A stretch of 44,335 bases of DNA from Desulfobacterales bacterium (lineage in GTDB: Bacteria; Desulfobacterota; Desulfobacteria; Desulfobacterales; UBA5852). The translations under genes and the position numbers were made by a program. Of the stretch, positions 10,982 to 44,335 are shown piece by piece. Location: NCBI GenBank assembly GCA_030066135.1, contig JASJCD010000002.1, positions 1 to 44,335 on the forward strand. The letters are read 5' to 3'. The notes beneath the pieces are model-generated. The model was not told the origin of the DNA. It ran no database searches and saw only the letters and a program-made list of their open reading frames with translations. Position 1 is the first letter of the stretch. Every line of letters starts with the position of its first letter.

Positions 10982-13900
10982 ATGAAACCGATTCGCTGCT
11001 TTTTGCGGGTGGCCGTGGTTTTAGCCCTGATGGCCATCGCCCCGTATATTCACGCGCAGGAACCCCTCCAAATTGTCTACAACACCGGGGTCGCCCCGCT
11101 GAAATTCGAAGACGCCGATGGACAGCCCCAGGGCCTGTTTCCCGATCTGTGGCGCGAATGGGCCCGCAAGTCCCGGCGTGAAATCGCCTTTATTCGGGTG
11201 GAAACCTTCGCGGAATCCCTCGAGATGGTGCGCCGCGGTGACGCGGACCTGCATGCCGGGTTGTTCAAGACACCCGAGCGGGAAGCCCACCTGGCTTATT
11301 CCCAGCCGATTCTGACGCTCGACTACCATATTTTCACCCATCCGAGCATCCAGCCTCTGGAGAATCTGGATCAAGCTGCAGGATTTCTTGTCGGCCTGGT
11401 TCGCGGCGGCTATACCGAAGATTTCGTGCGGGCCCGCATACCATCGCGCCTGCTTGTATTTTACAGCAGCAACGAGGCGATGTTCCGGGCCGCGCTGCGC
11501 GGCGAAATCAAGGTGTTCGTGAGCAGCAAGATCAGCCTGCTCTATTTTTTGAGTGAGCAGCGCCTGGCCAACATCTTCGGATACACCAAGGGCCGACCAC
11601 TTTACACCCAGACCTATTTCGCTGCCACAGCCAGGCCCAACAACGATTTGATCGCGGCCGTGAACGACGGGCTGCAGTCCATCCTTCCCGATGACCGTCG
11701 CCGAATGGAAGACAAGTGGATCCTCCGCAAGGCCAAGACCATTCCCATGGATTTCGCCGTGAATCTTTCGGTGGACGAGGCCGCCTACCTGGCCCGCACC
11801 GAGACGATCAAAGTCCACAACGAAACCGACTGGCCCCCGTTCAACTTCAACCAGAACGGTACCCCCCGGGGTTACTCGGTCGACTACATCGAGCTGCTGG
11901 CGGCCAAGACCGGGCTGGAGATCGAGTTCGTCAGCGGCCCCACCTGGGACGAATTCCTGAAGCGGATGAAAACGGGCGAGCTGGACGTCATGCTCAACAT
12001 TGCCATGACGCCCGAACGGAAAGGCTTTCTGACCTTTACACCGCCCTATCTCCAGATGATCCAGGCCCTCTACACCCGGGAGGACTTCCCCGCTGTGGAC
12101 GGGATCGAGGATCTCTTCGGACGGCGTCTGGCCGTGCCACGGGGCTATTTCCTGCAGGAGATGGTGGCCGAGCGTTATCCCCGGATCGAGGTGCTGGAAG
12201 TCGAGAATACCACCGAAGCCGTCCTGGCGGTATCCACCGGCAAGGCTGACGCCCTGTACGATCTGATGCCGGTGGTCAACCATATCAAGGACCAGCTGCA
12301 GGTCACCAATCTCAGGGTCGGCGGCGATCTGGGCATCGCCGCGGGCAAACCCATCCCCCTGCACATCGCCACCCGCAGCGACGATGTGCTCCTGGCCCGC
12401 ATTCTGGCCAAAGGCATGAATTTGATCACCGATGCCGAGCAGCGTGAACTGCATTGGCGCTGGATCGAGCCCCGCGCCAGTTCCCGAGAAACGGCCGATC
12501 TGACGACCGAGGAGCGGCGGTGGCTCGAAGACCATCCGCAAATCCGCCTGGGTGTCGATCCCACCTGGCCGCCTTTCGAGCAAAAGAACGCCGACGGTGA
12601 CTATGCCGGGATCACCGCGGACTATGTGCGCCTGCTGAACCAGCGGCTGGGCACCCGCATGCAGCCCATGATGGGGCTTTCATGGACCGAGGTGCTGGCA
12701 AAGGTCCAAAATGGCGAGTTGGATGTGGTGCCCTGCATTTCGCCGACACCCGAGCGGGCGCGATTCCTGCGCTTCACCAAACCCTACCTTGTTTTTCAGA
12801 TGGTGATCGCGACCCATAAGGACGCCCCTTTTATAAGCGGCCTGGCGGATTTGAACGCGGAGACGGTGGGTGTCGTCGAAGGCTATGTCAGCCACGCGTC
12901 GATTGCGCGCGACTACCCCCAGATCGAAATCCGCACCTTCGGCAATGTCGAAGAAGGCCTCCAGGCCGTCGCCAACGGACAGATAAAGGCCTTTGTGGAC
13001 AATCTGGCCTCGATTACCTTCATTATGAATCGCATGGATCTGGACAGCCTGAAAGTGGCCTCCACAACGGAATACACCTTCGATCTGGCCATGGGGGTGC
13101 GGCCCGACTGGCCCGAGCTTCTCACCATCCTCGAGAAGGGGCTGCAAACCATCGGCAAAAGCGAGCGGGCCCAGATCCACGACCGCTGGATCAACGTGAT
13201 CATCGAGCGCGCGGTGGACTGGCCTTTTGTGTGGCGGATCATTTCCATCGTCGCCGCCGCGGCAGGCGCCCTCGTGCTGATGGTTCTCTTGTGGAATCGC
13301 CGCCTGGCCCAGGAAGTCGAGGAACGACGCCAGGTTCAGCGCCAGCTGACCAAGGTCTCCCAGGCGGTCGAGCAGAGTCCGATTTCGGTTGTGATCACGG
13401 ACAACAATGGCCGCATCGAATACGTCAACCCGAAATTCGTCGAGTTCACGGGCTACACCATGGAAGAGGCGCGGGGACAGACGCCGCGCATTCTGAAAGC
13501 CAGCGATGTCTCCGCGTCGGTTTACGACGAAATCCGGCGAACGATCGACGGCGGCCGGATCTGGTCAGGCGAGTTGCGCAACCGCCACAAGAACGGTGAG
13601 TTGTTCTGGGAACGGGCGGCCATCGCCCCGATTTTCGACGACCACGGGAGTATCAGTCATTTCGTGGCCATGGAGGAGGACATCACCGAGCGCAAGGAGC
13701 AGGAGGAACGTTTCCGGGCCCTGCTCGAAGCGGCCCCGGATGCCATGGTGATCGTCGACCGCGGCGGTTCCATCGTGCTGGTCAATTCCCAGACCGAGCG
13801 TCTTTTCGGCTATCGGCGCGAAGATCTGCTGGGGCAGCCCATTGAAATCCTCGTGCCCGAGGAAAAACGTGCCGGGCACCCGGTGCTGCGCGACCAGTAC

Positions 13901-16900
13901 CTCGCCAGGGCCCAGGTGCGGGCCATCGGCGAAGCCCTCGATCTGATGGCCCAGGCCAAGGACGGCACCCTTATCCCCGTCGACATCAGCCTGAGCCCCA
14001 TCGACACCCGGGAAGGAACGCTGGTGGTGGCTTCCGTGCGCGACATCACCGAACGCAAGAAAGCCGAGGAAGCCATCCGGGCCCAGAGGGATTTCGTGGA
14101 AACGGTGGTCAACAGCATACCGGACGCGATCTCCATCCTCGATGTCGAAACCGGCGCCATCGTTGACGCCAACGAGGCCTTTCTGGCGGAGATGAACAAA
14201 CCCCGGGAAGAGGTCATCGGCAAGCCATGTTACGAGATGACCCATGGCCTGCAGGAAATCTGCGCGCCGCCGCACCACGAGTGCCCCATGCTCGAAACCA
14301 TGCACACCGGGCGCAAGTGCATGACCGAGCATATTCATACCGGCCCCCGGGGTGAGAAGCTGATCATGGAGGTTTCCACTTTTCCCATCCGGGCTGAAGA
14401 CGGGGCGGTGCGCCAGGTGGTGCATGTGGCCCGGGACATTACGGAGCGCAAGCAGGCCGATGAAAAAATCCGGGATTCCCAGCGGCAGCTCTCCCAGATC
14501 GTCAATTTTCTGCCCGATCCAACCTGGGTGGTGGATTGCGACGGCAAGGTGGTTTCCTGGAACCAGGCCATCGAAAAACTGACCGGTGTGCCTTCCGATC
14601 AGATGGTGGGCCGGAGCAACTTCGAGTACGCGCTGCCTTTCTACGATGAGCGGCGCCCCGTGCTGATCGACCTCGTGCGGGAATGGCAGGAGTCTTACCG
14701 GGAAAAATACCTGACGGTGAAAAAGGACGGTGAGAACCTCAAGGCCGAATCCTATCACCCGCACCTCGGGGACGGGGGGGTCTATCTAAACGCCACCGCC
14801 AGCCTGCTATACGATACGGCCGGCAACGTCACCGGGGCCATCGAGTCGCTGCGGGACATCACGGAGAGCAAGCACCTGCAGGAGGAACTGCTGCAGGCCA
14901 AGCAGGCGGCGGACGAGGCCAGCCAGGCCAAGAGCGATTTTCTGGCGAACATGAGCCACGAGATACGCACGCCCATGAACGCCGTGATCGGCATGGCGCA
15001 TCTGGCACTGAAGACGGAGCTCACCCCCAAGCAGCGCGACTACGTGAGCAAGATCCAGTCCTCGGCCAATTCGCTCCTGGGGATCATCAACGACATCCTG
15101 GACTTCTCCAAGATCGAGGCCGGCAAACTGGACATGGAGGCCGTCGACTTCAGCCTGGAGGACGTCCTGGAGAATCTGGGCAACCTCGTGACGGTGAAGG
15201 CGGCCGAGAAGAAGGATCTGGAAGTTCTTTTTTCCACGGGGGTGGATGTGCCGCGTTTCCTGGTGGGCGATCCGCTCCGGCTCGGTCAGGTGCTGCTCAA
15301 CCTGGTCAACAACGCCATCAAGTTTACCGAAACGGGTGAGATCGTGGTGTCCACGATCCTGGAATCACGCCAGCCGGATCATGTGATGCTGCGCTTTACG
15401 GTGAGCGACACGGGCATCGGGATCACCGAGGCGCAGCAGGCGCAGCTGTTTCAGTCCTTTTCCCAGGCGGACACCTCGACCACCCGCAAGTACGGGGGCA
15501 CCGGACTGGGCCTGGCCATCAGCCAGCGCCTGGTGAAGATGATGGGCGGCGATATCCGTGTGGAGAGCGAACCGGGCCGCGGCAGTCGCTTTGTCTTTAC
15601 GGCCCGCTTCGAATTGGGCGCGGAGAAGGCCAAGAAGCAGTTTGTGCCGCACGCTGATTTGCGGGGCATAAAGGTGCTGGTGGTGGATGACAACGCCACC
15701 AGTCGCAATATCTTCCGGGAGATGCTGGAGTCGTTTTCCTTCGAGGTGGCCCAGGCGGCCTCGGGGCAGGAGGGGCTGAGCGAGTTGGAGAACGCACCCG
15801 CGGATGCGCCCTACGAGCTGGTGATCATGGACTGGAAGATGCCACAGATGGACGGTATCGAAACGGCACAGCGGATCAAGACCCACCGGGCGCTGGCCAA
15901 GATTCCGGCGGTGGTCATGGCCACGGCCTACGGCCGCGAGGAGGTCATGCGCCAGGCGGAGAAAGCGGGGCTGGAGGGGTTTCTGATCAAACCGGTCAAC
16001 GCCTCGGTGCTCTTCGACACGATTATTCAGGCCTTGAACCCGGAGCACGACGATAGCGGTGAAGCCGACGCCGGCCCGGCCGAGGCTGGCCGGGACGTTG
16101 CCCATCTGTCCGGTTGTCGCGTGCTCCTGGTGGAAGACAATGAGATTAACCAACAGGTGGCCAAAGAGATCCTGGAAGGGGCCGGCATCGTGGTCAGTCT
16201 GGCCGACGACGGACGCGCCGGTGTCGAGGCAATCCAGCGTGGGGATTTCGATGCCGTACTGATGGATATTCAGATGCCGGTGATGGACGGCCATGAGGCC
16301 ACGCGCGTGATCCGTGCGAACCCTGAATTCAAGGATTTACCGATCATCGCCATGACCGCTCACGCCATGACCGGGGATGCGGACAAAAGCCTGGAAGCCG
16401 GGATGAATGGGCATGTGACCAAACCCATCGACCCGGATCAGCTGTTTGAAACCCTGCTGCAATGGGTGGCATCGAAAAAACCGTCAGGCGATCCGCCGGA
16501 GACGCCCGCTTCCGTGGTCCCGGAACCGGCTGCGGCGGATCATCTACCCGCCCACCTGCCGGGATTTGAACTCGACGCCGGCCTCAGGCGGCTGCAGGGC
16601 AACCGGTCCCTGTACCGCCGCTTGATCATTGATTTCGCCGCCAAATGCCAGGGGGCGAACGAAGAAATCCGGCAGGCCCTCGACGATGGCGATCTGGCGC
16701 ACTGCCACCAGCTGGTGCACGGCATCAAGGGGGCGGCCGGCAACCTGGCGGCCGCGCGTCTCCAGGCGGCGGCAACGGACATGGAGGCCCTGGTCAAGGA
16801 TGCGACCGTTATGCCGGCGGCCGAACGCCTCGATCCGGCGCTGAAGGGTCTGGCGGCGTGTCTGGATGAGATCGTTGCCGCCGCCGGGTTTCTGGGCGCG

Positions 16901-17152
16901 GTCCCTGAAACAGGTGATGACGCCCCGCCTGAAGATGTTATCTCCGTCGTACCGCAGGCGTTGCGCCGGGAAATCGCCGGGCGTATTCGCGCGGCCGCCG
17001 ACATTGGCGATGTGGGCGCGCTGAGCACCATTGCCGCCGATCTTGAAAGCCGTTCAACGGACTACCGGCCTTTGAGCCGGCGTCTGGCCTCCCTGGCCGA
17101 CGATTTCGATCTGGATGGGGTCGGGGGGTTGGCGGACGAATTAGATGAATAG
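10982..17152 (+). CDS. Hybrid sensor histidine kinase, three SBP domains, four PAS, two REC, HPt
   Basis: A 2056-residue BvgS/EvgS-like unorthodox kinase. A signal peptide (res 1-26, ending IHAQEP) leads to three tandem SBP_bac_3-type periplasmic modules (about 27-260, 270-500, 510-745), each starting with a strand-loop like [35 protein letters not shown]. One membrane helix (749-771) follows. Inside are four PAS domains (about 785-910, 910-1035, 1035-1165, 1165-1300); PAS3 carries a Cys/His-rich loop ([12 protein letters not shown]). Then come HisKA (H1326 in [11 protein letters not shown]), HATPase ([15 protein letters not shown]), receiver 1 (D1617), receiver 2 (D1762) and HPt (H1913 in [10 protein letters not shown]). 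A His-Asp-His phosphorelay to an unknown response regulator is expected; no separate regulator gene is adjacent. Ligands are probably amino acids or similar small solutes. AAGG precedes the start. Confidence 0.96.
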
Positions 17153-37488: not shown

Positions 37489-39225
37489 ATGCTTATATCC
37501 TTGATGGCTGACATTGGTCGACATGAGCAAAGCGCCATTCACAGAGGGCGCGTTCTATCCGCCCTCTGGCGGTTTGCGGGTCCCGAACGGATCGATCATT
37601 TCCTGATCCTGACCCTTTTGGTATTCGGTCTGAGTACCATACCGGCGCGCGCACTGGTGGAAACACACCCGCTGGCGCCACCCGATCTCGGCAGCCCGCG
37701 CAGCACGCTGGCTTATTTCACGCAACATATGAATCAGGCCTACCAGATCCAGCTCAGCGCTGGATTCGAGAGCCCGGAGGCCAGGGCACATATACAAAAG
37801 GCCGTCCGGGCCCTGGATCTAAGCGACGTGGCCCCGGCCGATCGCCAGGATGTCGGTTTCGAAACGGCCCTGCTCCTGAAGGAGATCCTGGACCGCCTCG
37901 ATCTGCCCTCCGAAAACGAAATTCCCGACGCGGCCTTGATGAATCTGGGGAAAATGACGCAATGGACCATCCCGCACACCGAGATCACCATGGCCGGCGC
38001 AACCGAAGGCCCCCGTATGGGCCAATTTCTCTTCAATCGCCAGACCGTTGATCGCATTCGTGTTTTTTTCGACCGTATCCGTGAGTTGCCCTACAAGGAG
38101 GGCGCGGCCGTCGGCATCTACGAAGACTATATTTTCAGCCCCGGTCCACTGATCCCCAATCGCCTGATCCAGGCTCTGCCCCAATGGGCCCATGTGGGCT
38201 ATTTAGAGCAAGCCGTCTGGCAGTGGTTTGGCGCCTTTCTGCTTCTGGTTATCGGTTCCGCGACCGTCATCATGGTCTTTCAATGGTCGCGCGGCGGTGC
38301 GGACGGCGCTGCGCAGCCTGCCCAAACAGTCCATTGGCGACGATTCGCTCCTCCTGTAACGCTTCTGATCGTCTCCGGCATTCTGCGCTATCTGGTGGAC
38401 GAACAGATCAATTTCACCGGCGCGGTCTTGGAATATCATACGCGGACCTTACGCCTCGTGCTCTTTCTCAGCGGCGCCTGGTTCATCCTGGTGGCCGGAC
38501 GGGTCGTCACCGAACTGATCGTGAACTCCCCCCGGCTCAGGCCTAAACACATCGATCCCAACCTGACGCGCCTCATTTGCAAGCTGTTGACCTGGGTGCT
38601 GCTGATTTTCCTGATCTGGAATGTGTCGGAATACCTGGGGCTCTCCTTTACGGCTGTCTTCGCCTCGGCCGGTATCGCCGGTATCGCCCTGGCACTGGCC
38701 GCCCGCGAAACCCTGGCCAATTTTTTCGGCGGAATCAGCATCCTCATGGACCGGCCTTTCAAGACCGGCGATTTCATCCTGCTCGAATCCGGCGAGCGCG
38801 GCATGGTGGTGAACGTGGGCATGCGCAGCACGCGCCTGCTGACCCGCGACGATATCCAGATCGCCATTCCCAACTCCATTATCACCAATACCAAGGTCAT
38901 CAACGAAAGTGCGCCCCAGCCGCGGTTTCGCATACGGATACAAGTGGGTGTGGCGTACGATTCTGATATTGACCACGTGGAGAAGGTCTTGCTGGCCATA
39001 GCGGGGGCCAACAAGCTGGTCTCCCCCACCCCGACGCCGCGGGTACGATTCCGGTCCTTCGGTGATTCGGCCCTGGACTTCGAGCTGCTCTGCTGGGCCC
39101 GCAGGCCCCACGACAAAGGCCGGCTGATCCACGAGCTCAACCAGGCGATCTTTAAGTCTTTCAAGGCCGAAGGCATCGAAATCCCCTTTCCCCAGCGTGA
39201 TGTGCACCTGATCAAAGGCGACTGA
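37489..39225 (+). CDS. MscS-family mechanosensitive channel
   Basis: A 578-residue channel of the longer MscS type. An N-terminal hydrophobic segment (FLILTLLVFGLSTIPARA) and a large extracytoplasmic region of about 170 residues precede four to five membrane helices (WFGAFLLLVIGSATVIMVF; LVLFLSGAWFILVAGRVV; LLTWVLLIFLIWNV). The pore helix AGIAGIALALAARETLANFFGG and the MscS beta-domain RPFKTGDFILLESGERGMV with LLTRDDIQIAIPNSIIT are clear. No ribosome-binding site is evident before ATG 37489 or ATG 37504, so the start is uncertain. Such channels release solutes on hypo-osmotic shock; the BCCT transporter downstream imports them, which fits an osmoregulatory pair. Confidence 0.94.
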   Translation: MLISLMADIGRHEQSAIHRGRVLSALWRFAGPERIDHFLILTLLVFGLSTIPARALVETHPLAPPDLGSPRSTLAYFTQHMNQAYQIQLSAGFESPEARAHIQKAVRALDLSDVAPADRQDVGFETALLLKEILDRLDLPSENEIPDAALMNLGKMTQWTIPHTEITMAGATEGPRMGQFLFNRQTVDRIRVFFDRIRELPYKEGAAVGIYEDYIFSPGPLIPNRLIQALPQWAHVGYLEQAVWQWFGAFLLLVIGSATVIMVFQWSRGGADGAAQPAQTVHWRRFAPPVTLLIVSGILRYLVDEQINFTGAVLEYHTRTLRLVLFLSGAWFILVAGRVVTELIVNSPRLRPKHIDPNLTRLICKLLTWVLLIFLIWNVSEYLGLSFTAVFASAGIAGIALALAARETLANFFGGISILMDRPFKTGDFILLESGERGMVVNVGMRSTRLLTRDDIQIAIPNSIITNTKVINESAPQPRFRIRIQVGVAYDSDIDHVEKVLLAIAGANKLVSPTPTPRVRFRSFGDSALDFELLCWARRPHDKGRLIHELNQAIFKSFKAEGIEIPFPQRDVHLIKGD

Positions 39226-39481
39226 TCCCGGACAGAATCTTCCGGTCTGGCACGGTCTGCAAGGTGGCGCCCGACAAAGCCCTTGCAAAGGCGGATCGGT
39301 GTGTATACATTTTTAGTCGTTCCAGTGTCCTCCCTTCCCAATAACCTTACTAGCTGAACGATGCGCACCCATGTCATCACGGTACGGTGGCGGCTCAGCC
39401 GATGCCGGGCCACCGCCGGCCGGGTGATAAAGAACGGCAGCCCTGCGTTGGCAGCCACTCGATCGCTAAAAGGAGCGGACC

Positions 39482-40969
39482 GTGTTTAAAAATCCTCTGT
39501 TGCTCATCGCTTTGGCCCTGACCGGAATGGTCGCCGGCTGGGGCATCATCGACAATGCCGGGCTGGCTGCCTTTGCCAAAACCATGACCGGCGCCATGTT
39601 CACCAGCCGCGGCTGGTTCGTGATGCTTTCGGCAAGCCTGCTTTTGCTCCTGTGCATCTGGCTGGCATTTTCCCGCTACGGCCAAATCAAGCTCGGCCGC
39701 GACGACGACGAACCCGAGTTTTCCACGATAAGCTGGCTGACCATGCTATTTGCCGCCGGTATGGGGGTGGGGCTGCTTTTCTTTGGCACGGCCGAGCCCC
39801 TTTCCCACTTTAAAATCGTGCGCGATTATACCGATGTGTTCGATGCCGCCGAACACTCCCTGTTTGTCACTCATTTCCACTGGGGTCTGCATGCCTGGGC
39901 CATCTATGCCGTCACCGGCCTGGTGATCGCCTATTTCAGTTTTCGCAAGGGCCAGCCCACCCTGGTGAGCGCTCCGATGCAGACCGTTTTCGGCCGGCGT
40001 ACCTGGACGAAGGGACTCGGCTGGTTCAGCGACCTTTTGGCCATCTATGCCATTGCCATCGGCATCGGCGGCTCCATCGCCATGGGCGTCTTCCAGATCC
40101 AGAGCGGGGTCGAGTCCCTTTTGGGCCTTGAGAACCCCGGTCTGTGGTTGGCACTGGTCATATTGGCGGTGCTGTGTATCGCTTACATCCTGCCGCTGAC
40201 GGTGGATCTGAGTAAGGGCATGGCAACCCTCTCCAACACGGCCATGGCCATTGCCGCCGGCCTGATGGTCTTCGTGCTGCTGACCGGCCCGACCTTCTAT
40301 CTCATGAACGGCATCACGGCATCCATCGGCACCTATTTCTCCCGGGTGGTGCCGCAGGGATTTCAGACCTACACCTTTTTCGACGAAAACGTGACCGCCT
40401 GGTTTCAGTCCTGGACCCTTACTTTCATGGTATGGTGGTTTGCCTGGTCGCCCTTTGTGGGGGTGTTCATCGCCCGCATCTCCAAAGGCCGCACCATCCG
40501 GGAATATCTTTTAGGGGTCGTGCTGGTGCCGACCTTTTTTTCGATATTCTGGTTCGGCGTCTTCGGCAGTGCCGGATTCTTCGGCGTGCTCGAGTTCGAC
40601 AGCGGCATTCTGGACGTGGTCGAGACCAATATCAACGACACCACTTTTTTTGTGTTGCGGCATCTGCCCATGACGACCATCACTGTTTTCGCCACCGTGG
40701 TGGCCGCTTTCCTCTTTGTTGTCACGAGCGTGGTCAGCGCCGCCTTCGTGCTCTCCATGTTCTCGATCGGCGGCGACCTGAATCCCCCGACGAAGATGAA
40801 ACTTGTCTGGGGCGTCATCCTGGGCGCCCTGGGATTGGTGATGATTCTGTCCAACAGCATCGACGCGGTCAAGAGCATCATCGGCCTGGCCGCCCTGCCC
40901 TTTATTTTCATCGTCCTTCTAATTACGGTTTGCCTGCTAAAGGCCCTTAAATCCGAGGAGACCCCATGA
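39482..40969 (+). CDS. BCCT-family betaine/choline/carnitine transporter
   Basis: A 495-residue secondary transporter with about 12 membrane helices. The glycine-rich TM3 stretch AAGMGVGLLFFGTAEP and the TM8 signature WWFAWSPFVGVFIARISKGRT are diagnostic, and the latter keeps the three tryptophans of the BetP substrate cage, so a quaternary ammonium compound such as glycine betaine is the likely substrate. It starts with GTG at 39482, eight bases after AAGGAG. The short cytoplasmic ends lack the long C-terminal osmosensor helix of BetP. Its stop overlaps the start of a 34-residue membrane microprotein (ATGA). MscS upstream suggests osmotic function. Confidence 0.96.
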   Translation: MFKNPLLLIALALTGMVAGWGIIDNAGLAAFAKTMTGAMFTSRGWFVMLSASLLLLLCIWLAFSRYGQIKLGRDDDEPEFSTISWLTMLFAAGMGVGLLFFGTAEPLSHFKIVRDYTDVFDAAEHSLFVTHFHWGLHAWAIYAVTGLVIAYFSFRKGQPTLVSAPMQTVFGRRTWTKGLGWFSDLLAIYAIAIGIGGSIAMGVFQIQSGVESLLGLENPGLWLALVILAVLCIAYILPLTVDLSKGMATLSNTAMAIAAGLMVFVLLTGPTFYLMNGITASIGTYFSRVVPQGFQTYTFFDENVTAWFQSWTLTFMVWWFAWSPFVGVFIARISKGRTIREYLLGVVLVPTFFSIFWFGVFGSAGFFGVLEFDSGILDVVETNINDTTFFVLRHLPMTTITVFATVVAAFLFVVTSVVSAAFVLSMFSIGGDLNPPTKMKLVWGVILGALGLVMILSNSIDAVKSIIGLAALPFIFIVLLITVCLLKALKSEETP

Positions 40970-41070
40970 CCATCGCAGATTTGGTCGATACCTATCTCAA
41001 CGTCGGCGTGTTTGTCTTTATCGGCCTTCTGGTCTGGCTCTACTTCAAAAGTGACCCCGATGGCCGTTAG
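40966..41070 (+). CDS. 34-residue single-span membrane microprotein coupled to BCCT
   Basis: Too short for the ORF track. It translates as MTIADLVDTYLNVGVFVFI then GLLVWLYFKSDPDGR: a polar N-terminus, one hydrophobic span (about residues 12-27) and a short charged tail. Its ATG overlaps the transporter's TGA (ATGA), and GAGGAG lies eight bases upstream inside the BCCT gene, so translation is coupled. By analogy with small subunits of other secondary transporters (MetS of MetPS, the small partners of some sodium symporters), it could be an accessory subunit. That function is inference; the reading frame, coupling and hydrophobic span are seen directly. Confidence 0.75.
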   Translation: MTIADLVDTYLNVGVFVFIGLLVWLYFKSDPDGR

Positions 41071-41322
41071 CAGCTACGGCCGCGGTCCCCAATGCCGGAT
41101 GCGACTGCGGAACGCAATCACCTGATCACTCAGGCGCCTGTCCGATGTACACGCTGCCGATAAGGCCCAAGACAACGTGGTGTTATCCCATGCCACTTTT
41201 CCGAAACAGTGTCGCTGATTACGGCCTTCCCGAGGCTGGCCGATGCTGCGTTCCCCCCCATCCCTGCTTGAACACCTCGAATCAGTGCATACCCATTACA
41301 AATTAAAAAATATAGGTCGAAC

Positions 41323-43029
41323 ATGGATGAGTTAACGCAGCTAGAAGAAACCCAACGCGAGATGGCCAGACTCCGTCAGGAATTGCGCGCCTGTCGGGAG
41401 ACCAGCGAGGCGCTGCGACAAAACGAAACCAAATACCGTCACCTGGTGGAGAAAGCCAACGAGGCCATCCTGGTGGCGCAGGACGGTTTTTTTCAATATG
41501 CCAACCCCAAGGCCGTAGAACTGTTCGGTCATCCACGGCAGGTGCTGACCACCCGGCCGCTGGCCTCCTTTGTTCACCCCGATGACCGCGAGATGGTGCA
41601 ACAAAGACATGCCGGGCGCACCCGGGGTGAAAATCTGCCGGAGACCTACGCCTTCCGCATCGTCCTTCCCAACAGCGCAACCCGGTGGGTCGAATTGAGG
41701 GTCAAACGCTTCACCTGGCATGGCCAGCCGGCCGCGCTTTGTTTCATCGCTGACATCACCCCGCGGATCCAAGCCGAAAAAAAATACCAGCGCGCCCTGG
41801 CCAGTCGCTTTGAAGGGTTCCTGATGCTCAGTAAGGAAAGGATTATCACGGAGGTCAACCAAGCCCTGCTGAAGATTTCCGGGTTCCGTACGAAAGACTT
41901 CATCGGACATCCGATCGACCAGTTCTACGCACGCGGCTCGGTTGATTTCTATTCGGCCAGCCCCGACCACTTCAGCTTCGAAGCCCTGTTTCGCGCCCGG
42001 GATGGCCGGCAGATTCCCATGCTCTTCAGCCGCAGCACGTTAAAGGATGAAAATGATCAAGCGACAGGCTTCATGTATTTTCTGACCGATCTGACCGACC
42101 TGAAAACCGCCCAGGAAGCCCTGCAGCGGGCGGAGCAGCGCTACCGCAGCATGTATCAAAACGCGCTGCAGGGCATGTTCCAGAGCCACCTGGCGGGCCA
42201 ACTGATCCGGGTCAATCCAGCCTTCGCCCGCATCCTCGGCTATGACTCCGTCGATGAGGTGCTTTCACTGCCCAGGGGAGCCAAAAGCTTTTACCGGCAT
42301 GCCGAAGACCGATCCCGGATGATTCGGGCCGTTCTCAAAAAAGGGGCGGTCACCAATCACGAATTGGAGCTCAAACGCAAGGACGGGCGACCGGTATGGG
42401 TGCTGGCCAATATCCGCCATATACGCGATGACAACGGGAAGATCATTCTCGAAGGCATGCTGGTAGACAACACCCATAAAAAATCGATGGAAACGGCCCT
42501 CAAGCGTGACCGCCGCAAATTCCGCGAGCTGGCGATCCACAACAACCTGACCGGGCTCTACAATACGCGCTACCTCTACCGGAAGCTCGATCAGATTATC
42601 GCCGAAAGCCATAGGATCCGGAGGCCGTTTTCTCTGGTTTTTATGGATATGGACAATTTCAAACAGGTGGTCGACACCTATGGCCACCTGAATGGCAGCC
42701 AGGCCCTCAAAGAAGTGGCCGCCACCATCAAAAGCTGCCTTCAAAAACCCTGTTTCGGCGTGGCCTACGGGGGGGACGAATTTGTCATCGTTCTGCCCGG
42801 ATACGATAAGTCACGGGCCCTGCGCAAGCTGGAGCAGATCCGCACCCGCATGGGCCAAACCCTTTATTTGACCCGGGCCGGTCTGCGGGTTCACCTGGGG
42901 GCCAGTTTCGGCGTGGCGACCTTTCCCGACGAGACGGATACCCGCGAGGGGCTTTTGGCGCTGGCCGACCAGGCCATGTTTCGGATCAAACAAACCGGCA
43001 AGGGGGCCATTGGCCAAGCCCCGCCCTGA
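41323..43029 (+). CDS. PAS-PAS-PAS-GGDEF nucleotide cyclase, Hypr-like
   Basis: A soluble 568-residue signalling protein: a short coiled N-terminus (2-30), three PAS domains (about 35-150, 155-260, 270-395) and a C-terminal GGDEF domain (about 410-565). The catalytic motif GGDEF (483-487) is intact. The guanine-recognition stretch reads FKQVVDTYGHLNGSQA: Asn of the usual ND pair is Val, and the Asp of GHxxGD is Ser (S459). Ser at that position is the hallmark of Hypr GGDEF enzymes of Geobacter that make 3',3'-cGAMP. No RxxD inhibitory site precedes GGDEF. The product could thus be cGAMP, c-di-GMP or neither. No heme or flavin motif is evident in the PAS domains. The gene stands alone after the BCCT unit. 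Confidence 0.94.
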   Translation: MDELTQLEETQREMARLRQELRACRETSEALRQNETKYRHLVEKANEAILVAQDGFFQYANPKAVELFGHPRQVLTTRPLASFVHPDDREMVQQRHAGRTRGENLPETYAFRIVLPNSATRWVELRVKRFTWHGQPAALCFIADITPRIQAEKKYQRALASRFEGFLMLSKERIITEVNQALLKISGFRTKDFIGHPIDQFYARGSVDFYSASPDHFSFEALFRARDGRQIPMLFSRSTLKDENDQATGFMYFLTDLTDLKTAQEALQRAEQRYRSMYQNALQGMFQSHLAGQLIRVNPAFARILGYDSVDEVLSLPRGAKSFYRHAEDRSRMIRAVLKKGAVTNHELELKRKDGRPVWVLANIRHIRDDNGKIILEGMLVDNTHKKSMETALKRDRRKFRELAIHNNLTGLYNTRYLYRKLDQIIAESHRIRRPFSLVFMDMDNFKQVVDTYGHLNGSQALKEVAATIKSCLQKPCFGVAYGGDEFVIVLPGYDKSRALRKLEQIRTRMGQTLYLTRAGLRVHLGASFGVATFPDETDTREGLLALADQAMFRIKQTGKGAIGQAPP

Positions 43030-43148
43030 TTGGAAAGGAACCAGGGCCGGCCCGGCGGCAGTTGTTTTGCATTTTCGGCAGGCGTGGGCTATGATCCATG
43101 GCATTCGTCGATCGTTATGGCCCAACTAACGTCGATTGCCATTCGCCC

Positions 43149-44335
43149 ATGCACCTGTTTTCAATCCTTCACGTCTTCGGCACCCTGTTTCTGGTTACGG
43201 GCATCTCTATGGTGCTGCCGATCGTCTGTGCGCTGATTTTCCCTGAAGGCGATTTTTTCGCTCTTTTCGTATCCGCCGTCCTGACCCTGATGTTGGGCGC
43301 TCCGCTGTGGTGGTTTTTCCGGCAGCACCACGAACTCGCCATCCGCGACGGCATCTTTATCGCCGTTTTCGGATGGGTGGCGGTTTCCGCCCTGAGCGCC
43401 CTGCCGTTCATGATTCATGGGGCCATCCCGTCGTTCACCGACGCCTTTTTCGAGATGATGTCCGGCTACACCACCAGCGGGGCCACCATCCTGACCGATA
43501 TTGAAGTCGTGCCCCACGGTCTTCTGTTCTGGCGCAGCCAGACCCACCTGCTGGGGGGCATGGGCTTTTTGACCCTGACCGTCATTTTCCTGCCCCACGG
43601 CGTGGGCGGACAGCGCATCTTCCGGGCCGAATCTTCCCCCGGCCAGGTGATCACCAAGGAAAAATTCCACTCCCGCAACCGCGACACCATGGTCCGGCTG
43701 TGGATCATCTACATGGTCTTAAACGCCGCTGAGACGCTGCTTCTGTGCCTGGGGGGCATGCCCCTGTTCGACTCCCTCTGCCACTCCTTCGGCACCGTTT
43801 CCACCTCCGGCTATTCCCCCTGGAACGCCAGCATCGGGCACTATGACAACGCCTATTTCGACTGGGTCATCATTATATTCATGTTCCTGGGCGGCATGAC
43901 CTTCGTTCTTTTCTACCAGATGATCAAAGGCGACTGGCGGGGGCTGCGGATTAACACCGAGTTTCGCTGGTACGTTAGTTTCCTGCTTTTCTTCTGCGGG
44001 ATGGTGTCGTGGATATTGTGGCGGGAGAACACCTACAGCCTGATGGATGCCATCCGTTTCGGGACGTTTCAGGTCGTGAGCCTGCTGACCACCACCGGCT
44101 TCACCACGGCCGACTACGAGCAGTGGCCTCAGGCGGCCCAGATGTTCCTCTTTGCCGTATGCTTCATCGGGGCCTGTGCGGGCTCCACCACCAGCGGCAT
44201 CAAGATCGTCCATTACGTGGTGCTGTGCAAGTTCATGGCGGCCGCCGTCAAGAAAATCTTTCTGCAGCCCATGAGCGTCATCTCGGTGCGCCTGAACCAG
44301 CGCCCGGTAGACGATTCCATCATCCAGCTTTCGGT
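43149..44335 (+). CDS. trkH: TrkH-family potassium uptake protein (partial, cut by window end)
   Basis: The first ~395 residues of a Trk potassium channel subunit; the frame is open at the window end, which is why the ORF track omits it. The typical N-terminus MHLFSILHVFGTLFLVTGISMVLP starts TM1. Four pore loops are seen: SGYTTSGATI, GTVSTSGYSP, SLLTTTGFTT and GACAGSTTSGIKI, with the expected filter glycines. An in-frame ATG at 43098 would add 17 residues, but the family starts at 43149; neither has a strong ribosome-binding site. TrkH works with the NAD-binding subunit TrkA, expected just downstream. With MscS and BCCT it rounds off an osmolarity/potassium neighbourhood. Confidence 0.93.
   Translation, partial: MHLFSILHVFGTLFLVTGISMVLPIVCALIFPEGDFFALFVSAVLTLMLGAPLWWFFRQHHELAIRDGIFIAVFGWVAVSALSALPFMIHGAIPSFTDAFFEMMSGYTTSGATILTDIEVVPHGLLFWRSQTHLLGGMGFLTLTVIFLPHGVGGQRIFRAESSPGQVITKEKFHSRNRDTMVRLWIIYMVLNAAETLLLCLGGMPLFDSLCHSFGTVSTSGYSPWNASIGHYDNAYFDWVIIIFMFLGGMTFVLFYQMIKGDWRGLRINTEFRWYVSFLLFFCGMVSWILWRENTYSLMDAIRFGTFQVVSLLTTTGFTTADYEQWPQAAQMFLFAVCFIGACAGSTTSGIKIVHYVVLCKFMAAAVKKIFLQPMSVISVRLNQRPVDDSIIQLS

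Follow-up and report, generated by a model that had tools for sequence, protein, structure and literature searches.

In canonical diguanylate cyclases such as PleD, the guanine base is bound by N335 and D344, which have been reported to be essential (PMC7288161) and have been named as the source of GTP specificity (PMC7186502). The Hypr enzymes, reported to constitute 0.17% of GGDEF domains (PMC9140294), carry a serine (Ser348) in place of D344, and this serine must be paired with a GGDEF rather than a GGEEF signature (the Goldilocks rule, GGDE[F/Y]; eLife 2019, PMC6456294). The cGAMP-dominant Hypr domains also have a residue other than Arg at the cross-dimer position, which is a correlate and not strictly defining, and in the solved Hypr structure Asn339 touches the base edge, a general GGDEF feature that was not stated to be Hypr-defining (PMC6456294). 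Two Hypr enzymes that have been assayed, Ddes1475 and Cabther_A1065, are of the Arg type. The selection of the base has, thus far, been explained chiefly by a single residue, aided by a second one across the dimer.

GacA of Geobacter (GSU1658; Gmet_1914, PDB 5VS9/6D9M) and Bd0367 of Bdellovibrio carry Ser at the D344 position, a GGDEF motif with Asp as its third residue, and a non-Arg cross-dimer residue, and the protein described here resembles them in all three respects. It differs from them by a Val in place of the base-contacting Asn, by the absence of an RxxD I-site, and by an Ala at R366, and its input domains are PAS rather than the Rec domain of GacA. The second Hypr enzyme of Geobacter sulfurreducens, GSU1937, shares the Hypr Ser with the query and, according to PMC8835794, likewise has no phosphodiesterase domain, whereas its motif is GGDDF and its input is of the HAMP/transmembrane type. 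Homologues of GSU1937 are stated in that source to occur in Deltaproteobacteria; no GSU1937-like GGDDF gene was matched in four Geobacter-like genomes.

Domain organization and residues of the nucleotide pocket

The protein is encoded by a Desulfobacterales bacterium (UBA5852; GCA_030066135.1, contig JASJCD010000002.1), and the window, meaning the whole stretch of DNA that was analyzed, comprises positions 1-44,335 (44,335 nucleotides). Orthologues of comparable length were found in two other genomes (G001, 574-aa frame; G033, 592-aa frame). The features of the gene are as follows.

41323..43029, + strand: PAS-PAS-PAS-GGDEF protein, 568 aa (ORF list; Pfam/NCBIfam profile matches)
41416..41784, + strand: PAS domain 1, residues 32-154 (best TIGR00229 stretch)
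41785..42126, + strand: PAS domain 2, about residues 155-268 (sensory_box/PAS_9 stretches, three in the protein; limits inferred)
42127..42504, + strand: PAS domain 3 and linker, about residues 269-394 (PAS_9, 288-383)
42532..43002, + strand: GGDEF domain, about residues 405-560 (PF00990 in the whole-genome search; AlphaFold2; Foldseek)
42565..42567, + strand: Thr415 at the cross-dimer Arg position (PleD R300; Tyr304 in GmGacA) (alignment; role from PMC6456294)
42646..42654, + strand: D442-M-D444 metal site (PleD D327/D329), both Asp 100% conserved in the lineage
42670..42672, + strand: Val450 in place of PleD N335, the guanine sugar-edge contact (alignment; role from PMC7288161 and PMC6456294)
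42697..42699, + strand: Ser459 in place of PleD D344, the Hypr-type residue (alignment)
42742..42753, + strand: QKPC at the position of the inhibitory RxxD (I-site) of canonical and Hypr enzymes (alignment)
42763..42765, + strand: Ala481 in place of PleD R366 (alignment)
42769..42783, + strand: intact GGDEF signature, residues 483-487 (ORF translation)
42988..43002, + strand: phosphate-binding Lys556 (K442) and Lys560 (R446 position) (alignment)

The first-pass annotation had described three PAS domains (three TIGR00229 stretches were found with NCBIfam) and a GGDEF domain with an intact signature, no inhibitory RxxD, and Ser and Val in place of the guanine-reading Asp and Asn. The alignments bore out each of these points: Ser459 is aligned with PleD D344 and GmGacA Ser348, Val450 with PleD N335 and GmGacA Asn339, and the I-site is QKPC. 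Three further changes, Thr415, Ala481 (R366), and Lys560 (R446), lie beyond its list. The Hypr rules regarding Ser, GGDEF rather than GGEEF, and a non-Arg cross-dimer residue (Thr415) are, thus, all followed in the query, while the base contact equivalent to that of Asn339 is lost to Val450. Compared with PleD, the fold, metal ligands, general base, and P-loop Lys are shared, whereas N335, D344, the I-site, R366, and R300 all differ; an RxxD I-site is common among canonical diguanylate cyclases but is not found in all of them. The equivalents of D327, D329, K332, D370, E371, and K442 are retained, and the marks of a degenerate domain (a lost metal ligand or a broken [GAS]G[DE]E[FY] motif) are absent, both features being intact in the query and invariant in its lineage.

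Placement beside GacA and the V335 lineage

Searches with the single sequence identified the Geobacter metallireducens Hypr GGDEF domain (6d9m) as the best PDB match (104 bits, versus 85 for PleD), and a profile of 30 relatives gave the same entry at 200 bits, with the next at 165. The AlphaFold2 model of the GGDEF domain (mean pLDDT 95.2) was also ranked by Foldseek closest to 6d9m (TM 0.95, rmsd 1.1), although all GGDEF domains score well, so that this rank discriminates weakly. The first-pass annotation had proposed a phylogeny with the Geobacter Hypr proteins; in trees built after the trait columns had been left out of the alignments, the query domain stands beside GmGacA, which is also its closest relative in sequence and fold. 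Domains with Ser or Thr at position 344, including GmGacA, grouped together (SH-aLRT 93 in the first tree; 79/88 in the second, which had a slightly smaller set), and the domains with Val at position 335 were nested within this group (SH-aLRT 97, first tree). Common descent of the query domain with GacA has moderate support from these trees. On the basis of this descent and of the Ser, GGDEF, and non-Arg features, we place the protein within the Hypr lineage, as a member of a distinct V335 sub-lineage.

Three main sets were distinguished among the aligned domains from related genomes, combining V335 and Ser/Thr344 (n = 61), N335 and Ser344 (n = 33), or N335 and D344 (n = 55). The V335 set was partly gathered by the V335 pattern and then defined by it, so that its 100% Val is a selection effect; the invariance of its catalytic residues is not. 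D327, D329, F331, K332, D370, and E371 are conserved in 100% and K442 in 98% of the 61 V335 domains, which share a mean identity of about 51% with the query. The third residue of the GGDEF motif is Asp in 61 of 61, the I-site Arg is almost absent, and about 70% of the lineage has another residue at R366, the Arg being kept, for example, in members L272 and L279. The position of N335 is occupied by Asn in all 33 N335/Ser344 domains and in GmGacA. In the second tree, for which a half-sample of the V335 domains was taken (n = 31), 30 of the 31 formed one clade (99/94). A V335/S344 domain lying outside the main clade (L263, genome G412) retains R366, has a long branch, and may represent an independent gain of the pair.

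A DNA pattern of the motif matched 34 of 395 evenly drawn genomes of the phylum (about 9%), belonging to 25 of 246 genera, while its reversed control gave one match. Together with the 61 aligned domains, this count indicates that the V335/S-T344 pair is not due to chance. The first-pass annotation had called the Val atypical; it is no peculiarity of a single protein, however, since the aligned domains show it to be a fixed marker of the lineage. The N335/S344 pattern was absent from all 58 near relatives; within the order, Ser-type GGDEF domains were, thus, detected in the V335 lineage alone. A literature search, in which coverage of subscription papers was limited, returned neither a description of GGDEF domains with V335 as a lineage nor any biochemistry on V335 enzymes; the group is apparently an undescribed Hypr-type sub-lineage.

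Catalysis, gene neighborhood, and riboswitches

One alternative, which we consider rather unlikely, is that the GGDEF domain serves for NTP binding or hydrolysis, or as a dimerization module relaying PAS signals, and makes no cyclic dinucleotide. Consistent with such a role, the query lacks both N335 and D344, the two residues reported as essential in canonical enzymes (PMC7288161), and R366, Arg300, the I-site Arg, and R446 have all been replaced; there is also no conserved neighbor or partner gene beyond close relatives. Hypr enzymes, however, have D344 replaced without loss of activity (PMC6456294), and E371 and the metal ligands have stayed invariant across the 61 domains despite their divergence. 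This invariance of the metal ligands and general base argues for catalysis. The input domains of the lineage members that were scanned vary (PAS, REC, REC-PAS, and GAF), as expected for a catalytic output that is reused, which also speaks against a non-enzymatic role; no EAL or HD-GYP domain was found in the members scanned.

The gene is preceded by genes for a thiolase, an MscS-type channel, and a BCCT transporter, and is followed by TrkH. An osmotic/potassium cluster can, thus, be delineated at 37489-44335 of the window, consisting of the MscS-type channel (37489-39225), the BCCT betaine-type transporter (39482-40969), and TrkH (from 43098), the last of which extends past the window end. A 34-codon ORF, MTIADLVDTYLNVGVFVFIGLLVWLYFKSDPDGR (40966-41070), begins at an ATGA overlap with the stop codon of the BCCT gene and appears to encode a small membrane protein that is coupled with that transporter. 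Elsewhere in the window (10982-17152), a hybrid histidine kinase of 2056 residues is encoded, with three SBP_bac_3 stretches, several PAS domains, HisKA, HATPase, two receivers, and an Hpt domain.

In Firmicutes, TrkH, BCCT, and MscS functions are under c-di-AMP control. The adjoining of these genes at the query locus, as well as the loss of both guanine-specific contacts, including the sugar-edge Asn that is kept in the solved Hypr enzyme, would fit a second alternative, in which ATP is the better substrate, because Val lies beside C2 of the base and hydrogen bonds specific to guanine are no longer made, and in which the main product is 3′,3′-c-di-AMP (or cGAMP, with ATP favored). We know of no GGDEF enzyme with c-di-AMP as its main product. 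TrkH was the sole recurring neighbor, found again beside the gene in two genomes of the same genus (in one with TrkA beyond), whereas orthologues at 70-78% identity lack it as a neighbor; the neighborhood is, therefore, weak functional evidence. The host already has two genes for DAC-domain c-di-AMP synthases, no c-di-AMP riboswitch was found in its genome, and the presence of the lineage among the relatives does not replace DAC (p = 0.24-1.0). On these grounds, a link to c-di-AMP through the neighboring genes was rejected, and an adenine preference of this kind appears improbable.

The A20 base of GEMM-I aptamers is reportedly the mark of cGAMP recognition, according to papers from 2015. Aptamers were classed by eye and by script, using only matches inside Infernal hits, as the regular expression alone gave spurious extras; the base numbers used are consistent with A14 and A41 as given in PMC6274999. 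The first-pass annotation had suggested a search of the genome for cGAMP riboswitches, whose presence would support a Hypr assignment without defining it, and this turned out against its proposal: all four GEMM-I aptamers in the host genome, which is 80% complete, are of the G20/A47, c-di-GMP type, and none is of the A20 type. A20 aptamers were detected in 10 of 58 relatives, namely 5 of 20 with the V335 lineage and 5 of 38 without it (p = 0.29; counted over the stronger hits and part of the weaker ones). One genome with an A20 aptamer (G004) carries a domain that is 95% identical to the query. With the host aptamers all G20 and A20 not tracking the lineage in the relatives, a link between the enzyme and cGAMP riboswitches was unsupported.

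The four G20 aptamers would instead fit a domain that uses GTP despite its changes and supplies c-di-GMP to the c-di-GMP riboswitches of the host, and there is a precedent in GSU3350, a GGDEF-motif enzyme whose D-to-S mutant remained a pure diguanylate cyclase (PMC6456294). Such a reading would, however, offer no selective reason to fix N335V and D344S together, the cross-dimer Arg that favors guanine is Thr in the query, and most other GGDEF proteins of the host keep N335 and D344 and can supply c-di-GMP. A diguanylate cyclase in practice is, thus, very improbable.

Tandem arrays of aptamers were also observed among the relatives. At L162 (G044:C102:7430-7900), four tandem c-di-GMP-I aptamers have the key bases A20, G20, G20, and A20, and the array could read two ligands; the same genome also carries the V335 GGDEF lineage. 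Further tandem c-di-GMP-I-type arrays were found at L225 (G025:C1:232150-232550), L199 (G014), and L175 and L185 (both G022), with some aptamers of L225 and L185 matching best to the Rfam c-di-GMP-I-UAU model, and some of L185 and L199 to the Rfam GGC model.

A sensor-controlled Hypr-type cyclase as the proposed function

The reading that we tentatively favor is that of a Hypr-type, sensor-controlled dinucleotide cyclase of the V335 sub-lineage, which tolerates ATP, is free of feedback, and has cGAMP as its likeliest product. Signals sensed by the PAS domains would set the arrangement of the GGDEF domains in the dimer, and the intact metal ligands D327 and D370, together with E371 as the general base, would join two purine NTPs. 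As the guanine-selecting side chains are Ser and Val, ATP would be accepted beside GTP, the pocket discriminating weakly against it; the Val at N335 could mean either a further relaxed base choice or a weakened activity, and a shift in base choice across the whole V335 lineage is a reasonable hypothesis. No product feedback is predicted, because the I-site has been lost. The likeliest output would be 3′,3′-cGAMP, for which GacA and Bd0367 (PMC9140294) serve as the analogy, mixed with c-di-GMP and c-di-AMP. The proposal of the first-pass annotation, a Hypr-type candidate cGAMP synthase, stands as to type, which is indicated by the Ser, the GGDEF motif, Thr415, the trees, and the fold. As to product, we infer cGAMP rather than assert it, because N335 is reported as essential, R366 is Ala, the host aptamers are all G20, and A20 is not tied to the lineage.

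The V335 domains constitute a naturally occurring lineage, carried by about 9% of the sampled genomes of the phylum, that has lost the inhibitory site and has another residue at the second base contact as well. If inactive, they would serve as a warning against naming cGAMP synthases by the Ser alone. If active, they would allow the selection of GTP or ATP by GGDEF enzymes to be examined in a case already supplied by nature, and signaling by cGAMP (or c-di-AMP) would extend to many Desulfobacterota.
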